This document shows positions 52,810 to 60,151 of a stretch of DNA of 64,000 nucleotides, piece by piece. The DNA is from a bacterium (GTDB taxonomy: Bacteria; Orphanbacterota; Orphanbacteria; Orphanbacterales; Orphanbacteraceae): the NCBI GenBank assembly GCA_025782575.1, contig JALGYY010000010.1, forward strand, positions 62,001-126,000. Direction: 5' to 3'. The number at the start of each line of letters is the position of its first letter. Within the stretch, counting starts at the first letter, position 1. The position numbers and the translations under genes were made by a program. The notes under the pieces are model-generated. The model searched no databases, was not told where the DNA came from, and saw only the letters and a program-made list of their open reading frames with translations.

Positions 52810-54207
52810 TTATCCAGCCACACTCCGCTCCAGGTATTGCCCGGTCCCTCTCTTGCCGTGAAAGGCTCCGTCTCCTATGAGCAGTTCTCCACGCCTCCAC
52901 ACTTTGACCGGAACGCCCCGTACCGTCACACCCTCATAGAGCGTGTGGTCCACATTCGCGTGAGTGCTCTCCCCCGAAAACGTTCTCTCTTTCTTCGGAT
53001 CCCATAACACCACATCGGCATCGCTCCCCGGCAGGAGCGCACCCTTCCGCGGGTAGAGGCCGAACAGCTTGGCCGGATTGGTAGCTGTGATCTCCACGAA
53101 TCGGGAAACATCATAGTGACCGCCGTTCACCCCTCCGTGGTACATCATCATGAGGCGCTCTTCCATCCCAGGCGAGCCGTTCGGAATCTTCGCAAAATCC
53201 TCCCGGCCCAGGTCCTTCTGCCCCTTGAAATTAAAAGGGCAGTGATCGGTCGAGATAATCTGGAGCGTGTTGTCGGCGAGACCTTGCCAGAGGGCGGGCC
53301 AATTGTCGGCCGAACGAATCGGCGGCGACATGACAACTTTGGCCCCCTCGAAATCGGGAAGCTCATAGTCCTCGTACTTCTTGAACAGATACTGCGTGCA
53401 GCTCTCGGCGAATGCGGGAAGCCCGCGGCTTCTGGCACGCCTCACCTGATTCAGGGCGAGTTCATTGGTCAGATGAACGACGTAACATGGTGCGCCGGCC
53501 ATCTCGGCAATCGCGATGAACCGGCCGGTCGCCTCGGCTTCCGCTTCGGGGGGTCTGGTGAGCGCGTGCCACTTCGGTTCGAAATGCCCGTTCGCATGTG
53601 CTTCTTTCACCAGCTCATCGATCACGTCACCGTTTTCGCAGTGGGCCATGACAAGCTGGCCGGTCTCCCGCGCGATCCGAAGAGTATTGTAGAGGTCGGA
53701 GTCCGATACCTGGAAAAGGCCCTTATAAGCCATGAAGACCTTCAGGCTGCTGATCCCGCGATCGAGGAGCCCTGGAATCTCTTTCAGGACCGCTTCGTTG
53801 AAATCGGTAACGGCAAGATGGAAGCCGTAATCGATGACCGGCTTATCGCCGACCTTTTCGTGCCACTGATCGACAGTCTGGTTCAGCGTCTGCCCCGGTG
53901 TCTGTATGGCGAAATCGATATGGGTGGTCGTCCCTCCCCACGCCGCCCCTACATGACCCGTATAAAAGTCATCCGCTGAAACTGTCCCGCCGAACGGCAG
54001 GTCCAGATGGGTATGCACGTCGATACCGCCAGGGATCACGTAATGGCCCGACGCGTCGATCGTCTCGTCGGCGCCTCCGTCGAGCTTGACACCCGTATCG
54101 ACAATCTTCTCTCCCTCAATCATGAGATCGCCCTCGAAAACGCCTTCCGAGCTGACGATCCTGCCGCCGCGAATCAGGATTCTCTTATCTTTGCTGGTGC
54201 TGGACAT
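52810..54207 (-). CDS. hydA: Dihydropyrimidinase / D-hydantoinase
   Basis: Amidohydrolase opening the ring of dihydropyrimidines or hydantoins. 465 residues. The binuclear metal site is complete: His65 and His67 (DVHTHLD), carboxylated Lys156 (SSLKVFMAYKG), His189 (MAHCENGD), His245 (YVVHLTNE) and Asp321 (STDHCPF). Family-typical PPIRSADNWPALW and NPAKLFGLYPRKG are present. Length fits. GGGGGGAT precedes the start. It is alone on its strand segment, 70 bases downstream of ispF, so it may be the last gene of that operon or have its own promoter. No beta-ureidopropionase gene is nearby. Confidence 0.93.
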   Translation of the reverse strand: MSSTSKDKRILIRGGRIVSSEGVFEGDLMIEGEKIVDTGVKLDGGADETIDASGHYVIPGGIDVHTHLDLPFGGTVSADDFYTGHVGAAWGGTTTHIDFAIQTPGQTLNQTVDQWHEKVGDKPVIDYGFHLAVTDFNEAVLKEIPGLLDRGISSLKVFMAYKGLFQVSDSDLYNTLRIARETGQLVMAHCENGDVIDELVKEAHANGHFEPKWHALTRPPEAEAEATGRFIAIAEMAGAPCYVVHLTNELALNQVRRARSRGLPAFAESCTQYLFKKYEDYELPDFEGAKVVMSPPIRSADNWPALWQGLADNTLQIISTDHCPFNFKGQKDLGREDFAKIPNGSPGMEERLMMMYHGGVNGGHYDVSRFVEITATNPAKLFGLYPRKGALLPGSDADVVLWDPKKERTFSGESTHANVDHTLYEGVTVRGVPVKVWRRGELLIGDGAFHGKRGTGQYLERSVAG

Positions 54208-54277: not shown

Positions 54278-54760
54278 TCAGGCCGGGAGGAGAAGGGCGA
54301 CAGCATGAACGGCAATTCCCTCGCCCTTCCCGATCGCCCCCATCCCTTCGTTGGTCTTTCCCTTGATCGAAATCACTTCGGACTCGATACCGAGCGCCCC
54401 GGCGATCGCCGCCCGCATCGCCGGAACGTGCGGCGCCATTCTGGGTTCCTCGGCAATGATCACCACATCGATGTTGCCGACTACATATTCACTCCGGCTC
54501 AGCAGATCCCGTACTTCCCGCAGAAACTCCATACTCGACCTGTCTTTCTGATCGGCATCGGTGTTCGGGAAGAGTGTACCTATATCACCCGCTGCCATCG
54601 CCCCTAGAAGTGCGTCTACCACTGCATGACTGAGGACATCCGCATCGGAATGCCCGTCGAGACCGCTGGAGTACGGAATGGTCACCCCTCCTACGATCAG
54701 CGGCCGTCCCTCTATGAAACGGTGGGAATCGTAACCGACTCCGATCCGGGGGACGATCAT
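54278..54760 (-). CDS. ispF: 2-C-methyl-D-erythritol 2,4-cyclodiphosphate synthase
   Basis: MEP-pathway enzyme, 160 residues from ATG 54760. Metal ligands lie in RIGVGYDSHRF (Asp, His) and GLDGHSDADVLSHAVVDALLGA (His). C-terminal segment ISIKGKTNEGMGAIGKGEGIAVHAVALL is typical. The ATG overlaps the ispD stop (ATGA); a frame open to 54787 is rejected. Makes the cyclodiphosphate from the product of IspD and IspE. Last gene of the long operon. Confidence 0.96.
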   Translation of the reverse strand: MIVPRIGVGYDSHRFIEGRPLIVGGVTIPYSSGLDGHSDADVLSHAVVDALLGAMAAGDIGTLFPNTDADQKDRSSMEFLREVRDLLSRSEYVVGNIDVVIIAEEPRMAPHVPAMRAAIAGALGIESEVISIKGKTNEGMGAIGKGEGIAVHAVALLLPA

Positions 54761-55455
54761 GACTTTTCCTTTCGCGAGGCGATCCACGAGGCAAGAGCGA
54801 GGTCATCGGGCGTTGTCATCTTACGATTCCAGATGCTCGCTTCCACGATCTCGATTCCTACATTGAGCCGCTCGACGAGAGAGGCTTCATCTGTCCCTAC
54901 GAAGTGATCTGCCTCCGCCTGGCGATACGCCCTTCGGATCAGATCGATCCGGAAAGCCTGGGGGGTCTGGGCAAGAAGAAGCCGATCACGATCGACCGTC
55001 CGAAGCCCGTGCCCTTCCATTCGTTCTTTCACTGTTTCCACCGGAGAGCTCGCCACGATCGCGGCCCCCTTTTTCTTTGCCAGGGCGATTGTTTCCTCCA
55101 CTTCCCGATCAGTCACGAACGGTCGCACACCATCATGCACGACTACCAGCTCAGTTGATTCCGGCGCTGCGGTAAGGCCGCGGCCTACCGAGTCGAACCG
55201 GGTCCTGCCACCGGGCACGACGCGCACGGGTCTGTCGCACACGGCGAGGATCTCCCGGACCTTCTCCACTTCACTCGCCGCAGCAGCAACGATGACGAGA
55301 TCGATTGCCTCGGTTCGCTGAAGGGCTCGCACCGTATGGAGCAGAACCGGCTCACCGTCCAGCTCCAGAAACTGCTTCGGCTCAGACGTACCCATTCGCT
55401 TGCCCGCGCCTGCAGCCGGAACGATGGCGACAGTAATGACAGAATCCGGACTCAA
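54757..55455 (-). CDS. ispD: 2-C-methyl-D-erythritol 4-phosphate cytidylyltransferase
   Basis: Transfers CMP to MEP. 232 residues. The nucleotide motif VPAAGAGKRMG with PKQFLELDG, the metal region VVVHDGVRPFV, SSPVETVKE, and AQTPQAFR...TDEASLVE are all as expected. The TTG start at 55455 overlaps the mlaD stop (TTGA). Paired with ispF, it indicates the non-mevalonate isoprenoid pathway. Confidence 0.96.
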   Translation of the reverse strand: MSPDSVITVAIVPAAGAGKRMGTSEPKQFLELDGEPVLLHTVRALQRTEAIDLVIVAAAASEVEKVREILAVCDRPVRVVPGGRTRFDSVGRGLTAAPESTELVVVHDGVRPFVTDREVEETIALAKKKGAAIVASSPVETVKERMEGHGLRTVDRDRLLLAQTPQAFRIDLIRRAYRQAEADHFVGTDEASLVERLNVGIEIVEASIWNRKMTTPDDLALASWIASRKEKS

Positions 55456-56354
55456 AAGATCTCTAATTTCACATATCGTTTGGGGTTTTCGCGAACATCC
55501 ACGAGCAGCTTGTTCATGTTCCTGGTAGCGAGAAGCAACTCATTATAGAGTTCATCATCTTTGACGAGTTTACCGATCGTCCCCTGCCCCGACTCGACTC
55601 CTGCAATCAGATTTTCCAACGTGGATACGGAACGGTCGAGTCGATCGACGAGCGCTCGCGCCTTTACCGACGTTTCCGAAAGGGCTGTCAGGGAAGTGTC
55701 GATGTACCCCTCGCTCTTCGTGATAATACGGTCGATTCCCTCTGCCGCTGAACGGGCACTCGAAAGAGATCCCTCTATATCCGCACGATGGCTCGCTATG
55801 ATTTCCTTGAGGTCTGTCGAGATTTCTTCGAGATCAGCCAACGACTCTTCGAGCGGACCGACCACCTTCTGATCCTCCACGATTCTTTCGATCTCCTCGA
55901 TGATCTTCTTGAGGCTTTCGAATACCGGCTCGGCTTCTGACATCACCGCACCCACCCCGGCAATATAAGCCCCCTGATGCACCTTGTCGGGGTCGATCGC
56001 CGACCGACCGGATCCGGGCTCGATCGCCACCTGCATCTCGCCCATCAACCCGAAGCTTTCCACGCGAAACGATGCGTCCTCATAGAGCATGACGTCCGGG
56101 AGGAGTTCCAGCATGATCTTTACTTTGCGATCGCCCAAATCGATCGCAGCTACCTTTCCTTGCTTGACGCCCGAGACGCGGACCGCATCACCCACTTCGA
56201 TACCGCCCACCTGATCGAAAAGAACCTGCAGGCGCAATGTATCGCTCGTCAGGAACGACTCGGACAGGAAGACGATTCCGAATACCAATACGAGAATCGC
56301 CACAAGAACCGTGGCCCCCACCCTCAGTTCAATGTTCGATTCAGCCAAAATCAT
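55452..56354 (-). CDS. mlaD: MCE-family lipid transport protein (MlaD-like)
   Basis: 300 residues. TM helix at about 12-32 then one MCE domain (about 38-128: LQVLFDQVGGIEVGDAVRVSGVKQGKV, then FGLMGEMQVAIEPG), then a long helical coiled-coil region of about 150 residues that could form a periplasmic tube. Unlike short E. coli MlaD (about 180), the C-terminus is extended. Part of an ABC importer/exporter for phospholipid at the envelope. It lies 9 bases after mlaF and overlaps ispD by TTGA. Confidence 0.9.
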   Translation of the reverse strand: MILAESNIELRVGATVLVAILVLVFGIVFLSESFLTSDTLRLQVLFDQVGGIEVGDAVRVSGVKQGKVAAIDLGDRKVKIMLELLPDVMLYEDASFRVESFGLMGEMQVAIEPGSGRSAIDPDKVHQGAYIAGVGAVMSEAEPVFESLKKIIEEIERIVEDQKVVGPLEESLADLEEISTDLKEIIASHRADIEGSLSSARSAAEGIDRIITKSEGYIDTSLTALSETSVKARALVDRLDRSVSTLENLIAGVESGQGTIGKLVKDDELYNELLLATRNMNKLLVDVRENPKRYVKLEIF

Positions 56355-56363
56355 TCCTCCGGG

Positions 56364-57125
56364 TCAAACGGTCTGGATCGGACCTTCCGCCTTCCCGCAA
56401 ATGAACTGCTGGACGTACGGATTTTCAGTACCCTTCACATCTTCCACCGCGCCGTCAAAAACAATACGGCCCTCATGAAGCATGGCGATTCGATCCGCTA
56501 TTTTGTATGCGCTCGTCATGTCGTGGGTCACAGTAATCGAAGTGGCGTGAAAGCGCTTCTGAAGAGATCGGATCAGGTCGTTGATGACATCCGCCGTAAT
56601 CGGATCAAGCCCGGTTGTCGGCTCGTCGTACAGGATGATCTCAGGATCCATGGCGATCGCCCGCGCCAGAGCGGCCCGTTTCCGCATCCCGCCGGACAGC
56701 TCGGACGGCTTCTTGTCGATTGCACTTCTAAGATTGACAAGATCGAGCTGCACTTCCGCCGTCCTCCGAAGCTCTTCCGGCGACAGATGAAAATGCTCTT
56801 TGAGGCCGATCGAGACGTTCTCGCCCACAGTCATCGAATCGAACAGTGCCGAGGCCTGAAAGAGAAACCCGAATTTCTTTCGCACCTCGTACAGATCGCG
56901 GCGTCTCATGTGACTGACATCCACGCCATCCACATAGACCGCACCCTTGTCCGGTTGATGGAGGCCGATCATGTGACGGAGCAGCACGCTCTTGCCGCAA
57001 CCGCTCGGCCCTATGATGACGATCGATTCCCCCCGCCTGATATCGATGTCGACGCCTCGAAGCACATGCTGATCTCCGAACGACTTCTCCAGACCCTGAA
57101 CAGATAGGACAACCTCTTTGCTCAC
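56364..57125 (-). CDS. mlaF: ABC transporter ATP-binding protein (MlaF-like)
   Basis: 253 residues, GTG start. Walker A GPSGCGKSVLLRHMIGL, Q-loop FLFQASALFDSMTVGENV, signature LSGGMRKRAALARAIAMDPEI, Walker B ILYDEPTTGLDPI and the switch His in TVTHDM. FQASALFDS is typical of Mla/MCE ATPases. Powers the MlaE permease. GTGA overlap with the protease gene before it, a gene that separates it from mlaE. Confidence 0.94.
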   Translation of the reverse strand: MSKEVVLSVQGLEKSFGDQHVLRGVDIDIRRGESIVIIGPSGCGKSVLLRHMIGLHQPDKGAVYVDGVDVSHMRRRDLYEVRKKFGFLFQASALFDSMTVGENVSIGLKEHFHLSPEELRRTAEVQLDLVNLRSAIDKKPSELSGGMRKRAALARAIAMDPEIILYDEPTTGLDPITADVINDLIRSLQKRFHATSITVTHDMTSAYKIADRIAMLHEGRIVFDGAVEDVKGTENPYVQQFICGKAEGPIQTV

Positions 57126-57943
57126 CGGTCCACCAACGCCTCGCGGATCATGTTTTTGAGCGGGTTCACCGGGAGGGCGAGTCCGATTCCCGCAAACTGC
57201 GCCATCTCCACCGGAATGGACTCGATCTCGCTTAGAACATCCTGCCGGGACATGACAGGCCCCGGCGTTTTGACATGGGACTTCATCATCCCGATCACTT
57301 CGCCTGTGTCCTTCCGAAAGAGCGGACTCCCGCTCGTACCGATCGCCACGAGGGCGTCTACCTGAATCATTCTGAGGCGCGGCCCGTCAGGTTGGATCCG
57401 CCAGCGTCTCATGGAGGAGATATAGCCCATGGCCAGCGAGGGAACCACCTCGCTCTCCACAGTGTAACCGAGCGGAAATCCGATGAAGCCGACCTCTTCA
57501 CCCGCCCTCAAGTTATCGGAATTGCCCAGCCGTACAGGCGTAAACCCGTCGAAGTCGACCTTCAGGACGGCCGCGTCGAGACCGGATGCGGTAGCGATCA
57601 CTCTGGCGGGCAGATTGCGCTCCCTCTCTCCCCCCACACCGGGAATCGAAACTGTTACTTCCTCCCTTCCTGCGACTACGTGATAGCAGGTGAGCAGATG
57701 CCCCTTGTCATCGATGGCGAATGCGGTGCCGTAACTCGCGAATCCGGTGGACGAATCCTGAAACCATACGAGAACGGTAGAGAGGGAGTATTCGTCAAAA
57801 ATGTCAGCAACACTCTGGGCGGAAGCGGGTGCCGGAGCAGCCCAGACAAAAAGCAGAAGTGCCAGAAACGACTGCCACCGGGTGATCCCCGGTTCCTTTC
57901 CACAAATTCGAAGCGATTGGATCATCCGTCCGTAATTCCTCAT
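57122..57943 (-). CDS. Trypsin-like serine protease within the Mla operon
   Basis: 273 residues. Possible N-terminal signal/anchor (about 23-42, ending ASA-QS), then an S1C-type protease domain. The triad is His88 (LTCYHVVAG), Asp123 (GLDAAVLKV) and Ser204 (AIGTSGSPLF, in place of GNSGGPL). There is no PDZ domain, unlike DegP. It lies between mlaE and mlaF with 4-base overlaps on both sides (ATGA and GTGA), so it is expressed with the lipid transporter. A periplasmic protease acting on Mla components or envelope quality control is inferred. I know of no standard Mla operon with this gene. Confidence 0.83.
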   Translation of the reverse strand: MRNYGRMIQSLRICGKEPGITRWQSFLALLLFVWAAPAPASAQSVADIFDEYSLSTVLVWFQDSSTGFASYGTAFAIDDKGHLLTCYHVVAGREEVTVSIPGVGGERERNLPARVIATASGLDAAVLKVDFDGFTPVRLGNSDNLRAGEEVGFIGFPLGYTVESEVVPSLAMGYISSMRRWRIQPDGPRLRMIQVDALVAIGTSGSPLFRKDTGEVIGMMKSHVKTPGPVMSRQDVLSEIESIPVEMAQFAGIGLALPVNPLKNMIREALVDR

Positions 57944-58725
57944 GCGAAGATCCAGCTGAACAGAAACTCAGCCAGAATATAGTCCGAGATCAGAATCAGG
58001 AGGCACGACGAGACCACCGCGTGTGTGGCCGATTTACCGACCCCTTCGGCGCCGCCCGATGTTTGAAGCCCATAATAACATCCCATGAGTGCGATCACCA
58101 TTCCGAATACGAGCGATTTGATCATGCCGCTCCAGACATCGCTCGTCTCGAAGAAAAGCCTGAGACCGCTTACATAAGTTTCGCCGGACATGCCGAGAGA
58201 ACCGACCGCGGCGAGATAGCCACCGAAGATGGCGAGGCCGTCGGCGAAGATCGTTACCACAGGGATCATGATGGCTCCTGCCACGAATCGGGGGAGAACA
58301 AGATAGCGAGTCGAGTCGATCGCCATCGCTTCGAGCGCGTCGATCTGTTCCGTCACCTTCATGGTGCCGAGCTCAGCAGCGATCGACGCGCCTACCCGCC
58401 CGCCGACCACGAGGCCGGTAAGAACGGGTCCGAGTTCGATGAGCACCGAACGACCCACAACTGAACCGACGAACCGATCGGGAATCCAGTTCTGAAACTG
58501 GTAGGCCGCCTGTACCGCAGCCACGCCGCCCGTAAAGAATGACGTGACGATCACGAGCGGCAGTGAGCCGACGCCCATCTCCATCATCTGCACGACAGTG
58601 AGCCGAACCGTGCGAGGAAGCTGGGGGAGCACCTTGATTATGCGGACAACAAGAATCGCGAGTTCGCCCAGCTCGGCGATAGCGCGCATCGCTCCCCGCC
58701 CAAGGGAAGAAACGGCTTCGCGCAA
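57940..58725 (-). CDS. mlaE: MCE-system permease (MlaE-like)
   Basis: 261 residues with about 5-6 TM helices. Highly typical segments are SFFTGGVAAVQAAYQF, LGPVLTGLVVGGRVGASIAAELGTMKVTEQIDALEAM, and YLVLPRFVAGAIMIPV. The TTG start at 58725 has a perfect AGGAGG 6 bases upstream and sits one base after the dnaB stop, giving the usual family length; a frame open to 58791 has no such signal. Inner-membrane channel of the lipid transporter. Confidence 0.93.
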   Translation of the reverse strand: MREAVSSLGRGAMRAIAELGELAILVVRIIKVLPQLPRTVRLTVVQMMEMGVGSLPLVIVTSFFTGGVAAVQAAYQFQNWIPDRFVGSVVGRSVLIELGPVLTGLVVGGRVGASIAAELGTMKVTEQIDALEAMAIDSTRYLVLPRFVAGAIMIPVVTIFADGLAIFGGYLAAVGSLGMSGETYVSGLRLFFETSDVWSGMIKSLVFGMVIALMGCYYGLQTSGGAEGVGKSATHAVVSSCLLILISDYILAEFLFSWIFA

Positions 58726-58726
58726 C

Positions 58727-60151
58727 CTATTCCTCCTGAGGGACGACCTCTGATTCATCATTATCGTAGACAGGTTGATCGAAGTAAGCATCGGGCGCCG
58801 GATCTTCGAAGCGCATGAAGTCCTTGATAAAGGTCAGTTTGACGGTGCCCAGTTGACCGTTTCTATGCTTCCTGATCAAAAGCTCAGCGCGATTCCTGAG
58901 ACTCTCGTCGTCCGGATTGTAGACCTCTTCCCTGAAGAGAAAGATCACAACGTCGGCATCCTGCTCGATGGCCCCTGATTCCCGGAGGTCGGAAAGCACG
59001 GGTCGCTTGTCTTTCGGGTTTCGCATTTCCACCGCACGGGAGAGCTGAGAGAGGGCGACCACAGGAATCCGGAGTTCTTTCGCAAGCGCTTTCAGTGAAC
59101 GGGAGATATGGGAAATCTCCTGCTGCCGGTTTTCGTGGCGGCCGCCACCGGTCATGAGCTGCAGATAGTCGACAATCAGGAGCGAGAGATCGTGCTCCGC
59201 CGCGAGACGCCGCGCCTTGGCCCGCATTTCGAGAACGTTCAGCATGGGGCTGTCATCTATGAAAATCGGCGCTTCATAAAGAGAGTTGGCCGCCTGCACC
59301 AGTTTCTGCCATTCCGCACTGCTCAATCGACCGTTCCGCACCTTGTAACTGCTGAGCCGGGCATCGGAACAGATAAGCCGGTTCACAAGTTGATCGTTCG
59401 ACATTTCCAGGCTGAAGATCCCTACCGCTCTTTTCGATTGTAACGCGACATTCTGGGCGATGTTCAGCGCGAAGGCGGTCTTGCCCATCGATGGCCGTCC
59501 GGCGAAAATTATGAGATCGCTGTTCTGAAAACCGGAGAGGATCGAGTCGAGCTCCCTGTAACCGGAAGCGAGCCCGAGCGCCGACAGTCCTCCCTGCCTG
59601 ACAAGATCGATCTTCTTCACCACCTCACTCACAATCGGTTTCACACGCTGGAATCCCTGGGAGAGGCGGTTCTCCGAGATCTCGAAGATCGACTGCTCCG
59701 CTTTGTCCAGTAGAACGTCGACTTCGTCGGCCTGGTCATAGCTCTTCTGTACGATTTCAGTGCCGGTTCGAATCAGCTCGCGCCGTACCCACTTTTCCTT
59801 GATGAGATTGGCGTGATACGTGATGTGCGCCGCCGTGGCGACCGTGTCCAGCAAAGATGCGAGGTAGAGCCTCCCCCCGATTTTTTCGAGTGTTCCGTCA
59901 CGGTTCATCTCATCGGAAATGGTCAAGATGTCGATCGCCTCGTCCCGTTCGAAGAGATTCAGCATGGCCAAGTAGATCTTGCGGTGTGCTCCGCGGTAAA
60001 ACGCCTCCGTGCCGATCACTTCGATAGCACGTGTAATCGCCCGCGGTTCGATCAGAATTGCACCGAGCACCGCCATTTCGGCTTCGACGGCGCTCGGCGG
60101 AACTCGATCAAATGCGTCGCTCTTTTTTCCCTGGGGCAGGCCCACGTTCAA
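58727..60151 (-). CDS. dnaB: Replicative DNA helicase
   Basis: Hexameric helicase that unwinds at the fork. 474 residues. N-terminal domain (PPSAVEAEMAVLGAILIEP) binds primase; the RecA-like domain has Walker A FAGRPSMGKTAFALNIAQN, Walker B LSLLIVDYLQLM, and LSQLSRAVEMRNPKDKRPVLSDLRESGAIEQDAD. No intein visible. Start TTG 60151 after AAGAGGAG (short spacing); a GTG two codons later is possible. Eight bases after the UDG gene. Confidence 0.95.
   Translation of the reverse strand: MNVGLPQGKKSDAFDRVPPSAVEAEMAVLGAILIEPRAITRAIEVIGTEAFYRGAHRKIYLAMLNLFERDEAIDILTISDEMNRDGTLEKIGGRLYLASLLDTVATAAHITYHANLIKEKWVRRELIRTGTEIVQKSYDQADEVDVLLDKAEQSIFEISENRLSQGFQRVKPIVSEVVKKIDLVRQGGLSALGLASGYRELDSILSGFQNSDLIIFAGRPSMGKTAFALNIAQNVALQSKRAVGIFSLEMSNDQLVNRLICSDARLSSYKVRNGRLSSAEWQKLVQAANSLYEAPIFIDDSPMLNVLEMRAKARRLAAEHDLSLLIVDYLQLMTGGGRHENRQQEISHISRSLKALAKELRIPVVALSQLSRAVEMRNPKDKRPVLSDLRESGAIEQDADVVIFLFREEVYNPDDESLRNRAELLIRKHRNGQLGTVKLTFIKDFMRFEDPAPDAYFDQPVYDNDESEVVPQEE

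Follow-up and report, generated by a model that had tools for sequence, protein, structure and literature searches.

The window analysed here is a stretch of 64,000 nucleotides from contig JALGYY010000010.1 (positions 62,001 to 126,000 of the forward strand). Genes on its minus strand follow one another in the order yicC, gmk, possible rpoZ (a small gene with no Pfam match), coaBC, a UDG-family gene, dnaB, mlaE, a protease gene, mlaF, mlaD, ispD, and ispF. The features around the protease gene are as follows.

58727..60151, minus strand: dnaB, conserved neighbour upstream
57940..58725, minus strand: mlaE, permease of the MCE transporter (PF02405, 261.7 bits; TTG start)
57940..57943, minus strand: overlap of mlaE and the protease gene, 4 bases
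57122..57943, minus strand: protease gene, predicted PDZ-less HtrA-type serine protease (273 aa; Pfam Trypsin_2; catalytic triad)
57122..57125, minus strand: overlap of the protease gene and mlaF, 4 bases
56364..57125, minus strand: mlaF, ABC ATPase of the MCE transporter (GTG start; NCBIfam MlaF as best model, 220.7 bits)
55452..56354, minus strand: mlaD, MCE protein with a predicted helical C-terminal half (PF02470, 55.7 bits)
54757..55455, minus strand: ispD, conserved neighbour downstream
54278..54787, minus strand: ispF, conserved neighbour downstream

The protease gene was thus located between mlaE and mlaF where the initial annotation had placed it, and the 4-base overlaps described there were seen with both neighbours. 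Overlaps of this length occur at 4 of the 11 listed operon junctions, including coaBC/udg and mlaD/ispD. Reading mlaE from the TTG at position 58725 is supported by AGGAGG immediately upstream; a longer ORF, up to 58791, would enter dnaB. As the score of mlaF was below the cut-off of its NCBIfam model (441), this gene was named from the match together with its context. Downstream of ispF, likewise on the minus strand, is a dihydropyrimidinase gene (52810-54207; D-hydantoinase model, 571 bits, above cut-off), and in genome G001 of the same phylum a homologue lies approximately 2.9 kb past ispF.

The protease was compared with its counterparts in seven genomes of the phylum of the window organism, representing one family and five genera and hereafter called the clade. 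The window protein matched Pfam Trypsin_2 with 97.2 bits (cut-off 27.6). His88, Asp123, and Ser204, proposed earlier as a complete triad, were invariant in all seven clade proteases and aligned with the HtrA triad positions. The reported absence of a PDZ domain was borne out, with no match in the Pfam search for the window protease or any other clade copy. A hydrophobic stretch (residues 26-40) followed by ASA-Q, as read from sequence and hydropathy, agrees with the signal peptide predicted previously, and by hydropathy a hydrophobic N-terminal stretch was present in the six clade proteases with a readable N-terminus. The label "trypsin-like" is appropriate for the fold but not for the specificity. 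Trypsin carries an Asp six residues before the catalytic Ser, whereas in the clade proteases this position (by trypsin numbering) is Leu, Thr, or Ser, so that specificity for Lys/Arg is not expected. Cys86, two residues N-terminal of the catalytic His, was also invariant in 7/7 clade proteases and may allow redox control.

An AlphaFold model of the protease, built with a 7-row alignment, had a mean pLDDT of 74.2 and a pTM of 0.72. Foldseek gave DegP (8f0a) as the best match (E 9.4e-15), and VIA-align superimposed 194 residues of the model on this structure with Z 24.7 and an rmsd of 2.5; Z was about 24 for DegP, DegQ, and Deg1. The Foldseek and VIA matches listed were dominated by HtrA chains, and the absence of other S1 families among them is uninformative. 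By sequence, the closest solved relative was MucD (E 5.9e-23). The NCBIfam model degP_htrA_DO scored 77.8 bits, under its cut-off of 416.2, and covered model positions 54-197 of 434. In a PADLOC scan, the only resemblance to defence proteins was weak and lay in the trypsin domain (48 bits at best), and the context of the gene is not that of a defence locus. The predicted fold and the best sequence matches are those of HtrA/Deg proteases, minus the PDZ domain.

Like members of the HtrA/Deg family (MEROPS S1C; DegP, DegQ, DegS, and plant Deg1), the clade proteases have a predicted chymotrypsin-type fold, the same triad order, GxSG, and a C-terminal GIGxAxP motif, which is an HtrA signature. They differ from typical members in three respects: one or two C-terminal PDZ domains are replaced by none; the HtrA sequence GNSGGP reads GTSGSP, GNSGSP, or GHSGSP; and, in comparison with DegP, the clade proteases have about 25 additional residues separating the strand that bears Ser204 from the GIG motif. 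HtrA-like protease domains among the Foldseek matches included Deg5 (4ic5) and MarP Rv3671c (3lt3), both of which have a protease domain without PDZ; MarP has, in addition, a multi-pass membrane part at its N-terminus. To our knowledge, neither is known from an MCE operon. Other HtrAs are encoded in the window genome, three with PDZ above cut-off and a fourth with a weak match. With at least three HtrAs carrying a clear PDZ domain, the operon protease is not the only general HtrA of this organism but an additional, operon-bound enzyme.

The transporter encoded next to the protease is simple in composition. One MlaE was found per genome in six of the seven clade genomes, and the single PF02470 match in the window genome was MlaD. 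Searches with PF05494 and PF04333 detected MlaC and MlaA in none of the seven, and both were detected in the E. coli control. Judged from this gene content, the transporter is of the minimal MlaEFD kind. MlaD was predicted to have a membrane helix, an MCE domain, and long helices, with no beta-barrel predicted, at low confidence (mean pLDDT 60 for a model of the monomer). The C-terminal tail of MlaD, NPKRY..IF (window positions 55452-55490), ends in Phe and is common to clade and outgroup MlaD.

The MlaEFD core has been described, in a study of Veillonella parvula, as ancestral and widespread (Grasekamp et al. 2023, PMC10665443). The minimal system of that species likewise has MlaE, MlaF, and MlaD in one operon, no MlaA or MlaC, and a long helical MlaD, as predicted for the clade. 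It differs from the clade system in that the clade MlaD has no predicted beta-barrel (low confidence) and neither TolC nor TamB was seen in the part of the operon that was scanned. The words "protease" and "peptidase" do not occur in the main text of that paper, whereas the clade operon has a protease embedded in it. Among the papers listed on MCE, Mla, and Let systems in connection with proteases, HtrA, operons, and gene neighbourhoods, none, judged by its title and the opening of its abstract, dealt with a protease encoded inside an MCE operon. The parts are of known kinds; the combination of a minimal MCE operon and a PDZ-less HtrA-type protease gene within it was met with neither in these papers nor in the outgroup loci, and we regard it as new.

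The protease gene was present in 7/7 clade genomes, ruling out an artefact of one genome. The order mlaE-protease-mlaF-mlaD was observed in six of the seven, that is, in every genome in which mlaE was found (6/6); conservation of the insertion among relatives had been suggested as a check. In the remaining genome, G005 (82% complete), the contig starts within the protease gene and continues with mlaF-mlaD-ispD-ispF, and mlaE was not found. Identity to the window copy was 47-54% for the protease and, by tblastn, 69-84% for MlaE, 66-78% for MlaF, and 37-48% for MlaD. With start codons chosen by the analyst, the protease/mlaF overlap was 4 bases in 6/7 genomes and likely 14 in G001, and the mlaE/protease overlap was 4 bases in three of six readable cases, the other three having 17 bases or a small gap.

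Outside the clade, a search with the single window protein yielded only two HtrA-like loci (30-31% identity). A profile of the seven clade proteins was then run over 386 genomes (7 of them the clade) and over the nearest-outgroup phyla (8 and 47 genomes, E 1e-26), making 430 non-clade genomes after removal of overlaps. No counterpart of the protease was detected in these 430 genomes. The clade proteins scored 403-437 bits and the best non-clade match 102 bits; the non-clade matches lay in frames mostly of 360-600 aa with the appearance of ordinary HtrA-type proteins, and four HtrA-like matches at 95-98 bits came from the nearest-outgroup phyla. No orthologue away from MCE genes was thus encountered in the 430 genomes; a wide occurrence of homologues far from such genes had been named as speaking against a link.

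Of the 143 non-clade mlaE loci among the matches listed, those with the greatest similarity to the window mlaE, 140 were considered (omitted: G363:C20, G279:C113, and G338:C30). An MlaF-like gene was present within 5 kb downstream on the same strand in 120 of these 140; the remaining 20 had no such gene downstream, 5 of them with less than 3.2 kb of downstream sequence left. mlaE adjoined mlaF in 114/120 loci (aligned edges no more than 401 bases apart). In five others (L084, L091, L119, L127, and L159), unrelated genes of approximately 1.4-1.6 kb separated the two, with no protease among them, and in L085 the "MlaF" was part of another ABC transporter. No trypsin-type frame was found between mlaE and mlaF at any of the 120 loci among the matches listed, in keeping with the earlier statement that MCE operons normally do not carry such a protease; the only one anywhere at the 140 loci was on the opposite strand of L159, approximately 4 kb off. 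The inserts in L119, L127, and L159 consist of two genes and represent two outgroup families; by eye, the second gene resembles a helicase-loader ATPase of the DnaC/DnaI type. It was also observed that dnaB lies on the same strand no more than 400 bases upstream of mlaE in 40/140 outgroup loci, and 400-2500 bases upstream in 22 more; dnaB and the lipid transporter form an old neighbourhood.

The operon without the protease is represented by L078, a close outgroup with the order coaBC-dnaB-mlaE-mlaF-mlaD-ispD-ispF, in which mlaE and mlaF overlap by about 4 bases. In 13 outgroup loci, the mlaE-mlaF gap, estimated by alignment to the window MlaF, was -19 to +90 bases. In a tree of MlaE, MlaF, and DnaB from 30 loci (L093 dropped because of its incomplete set; L084, L085, and L042 not included), the protease-bearing loci formed one clade with support of 100/99, requiring one state change. 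A protease tree made by a quick method placed the seven clade proteases in one group (SH-aLRT 100), with no conflict between the order within this group and the operon tree. Since the protease-bearing loci are one clade and the nearest outgroup operons have no protease, the gene was gained once and inherited vertically. Derivation from a local DegP copy was not supported, as the other HtrAs of the clade fall into other groups of the tree (three starred groups, with L220/L223 and L221 weakly placed) and those checked in the window genome have PDZ domains, three clearly and one weakly. Relative to the sampled HtrAs, the clade proteases sit on a long branch at an open fork that carries a long-branch warning.

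For the pair G002/G005, dN/dS (NG86) was 0.17 for the protease, 0.12 for mlaD, and 0.04 for mlaF. This ratio, from the better-resolved pair, and the triad kept in 7/7 genomes rule out an inactive relic. For G004/G006, the values were 0.59 (NG86) or 0.33 (YN00) for the protease, 0.06 for mlaE, 0.15 for mlaF, and 0.11 for mlaD; the protease ratio is unreliable because dS was 0.036 with very few synonymous changes, and strong constraint in that pair is not supported. The protease dS in this pair (L044/L045; NG86) is far under the 0.22-0.29 of mlaE, mlaF, and mlaD, reflecting either local recombination or chance.

Since the insertion is clade-wide and no orthologue was found away from MCE genes in the 430 other genomes, a connection with the transporter is plausible, and we consider a functional link likely. 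Kept at a place where the other bacteria checked have no protease, the enzyme is a good candidate for one dedicated to the transporter. The initial annotation had also argued from tight coupling to a role in processing or quality control of the lipid transporter. The coupling is weaker evidence than was assumed there, because genes throughout the operon, those for housekeeping functions among them, are packed alike. Since dnaB, ispD/F, gmk, and coaBC belong to the operon as well, co-expression does not imply a common pathway.

Our preferred reading, to which we give a probability of about 45%, is that the encoded protease serves, in the periplasm, the quality control or turnover of MCE transporter parts. 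On the stem of the phylum, a PDZ-less HtrA/Deg-type gene was acquired once by an operon already ordered dnaB-mlaE-mlaF-mlaD-ispD-ispF, and it has been retained at this position with its triad intact. The protease would be co-produced with the minimal MlaEFD transporter and reach the periplasm by means of its N-terminal leader or anchor. Working beside the transporter, it may clear or trim periplasmic parts that are misassembled or in excess, with MlaD as the first target and MlaE loops as the second; alternative targets may be envelope proteins that suffer from a failure of lipid transport. With no PDZ domain, substrates would be found through local concentration or partner contacts, not through C-terminal tags.

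A possible alternative is that the protein is a general envelope protease, unconnected with the transporter, whose gene came to lie between mlaE and mlaF accidentally and gained constant expression there. This is a serious rival, because the operon mixes unrelated functions, some of its genes have nothing to do with lipids, many of its junctions show 4-base overlaps, and unrelated genes occupy the same spot in 5 of the 120 outgroup loci. It would also fit the lack of any co-changing segment in MlaD or MlaE: alignments showed no clade-only columns in MlaE (6 clade and 12 outgroup rows) or MlaD (7 and 8 rows), and clade-specific invariant residues were few, 8 and 2, respectively. Chance landing accords less well with the exact position being kept in 6/6 readable genomes while the proteases have diverged to 47-54% identity, a point weakened by the conservation of gene order in the entire operon, and with the absence of an orthologue from the 430 other genomes.

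A bolder reading of the link with the transporter, which we regard as unlikely, makes the protease an accessory subunit of the MCE transporter, seated on MlaD or MlaE and gated by lipid passage or assembly, such that failed transport would lead to local proteolysis. If true, the MCE system would contain a proteolytic checkpoint of its own.

Improbable, too, is a role as a sensor of lipid state, in which the idle, loaded, or broken state of the transporter would switch the protease to cut a signalling protein, comparable to DegS and outer-membrane proteins, with contact to MlaD or MlaE in place of a PDZ sensor. An HtrA fold without PDZ would suit such a role, as would the invariant Cys86 close to the catalytic His and the additional helix-containing segment after the Ser204 strand, a possible partner site ahead of the GIG motif. 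MCE and protease genes are likewise genomic neighbours in E. coli K-12, where prc and htpX lie within about 4 kb of letA; these, however, are of other protease families, on the opposite strand and in separate operons from letAB, with msrC and proQ between. Against the sensor, the scanned operon genes included neither an anti-sigma factor nor any gene for membrane signalling. The least probable role is that of an obligatory maturation protease cutting MlaD or MlaE to permit transporter assembly; position and co-inheritance speak for it, but MlaD length and the C-terminal tail are much alike in the clade and in close protease-free outgroups and the clade proteins have no extra segment, so that the maturation step proposed initially is disfavoured as a compulsory one. 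Both roles are less likely than quality control or chance landing.

Little is known about the checking, turnover, and tuning of MCE lipid transporters. The clade offers a natural test case, with an intact protease-bearing operon beside closely similar protease-free operons. If the link fails, it would be a clean example of how conserved position and gene overlap in housekeeping operons can mislead functional guesses. If the link holds, the protease would provide a transporter of three genes with a candidate regulator open to addition or removal.
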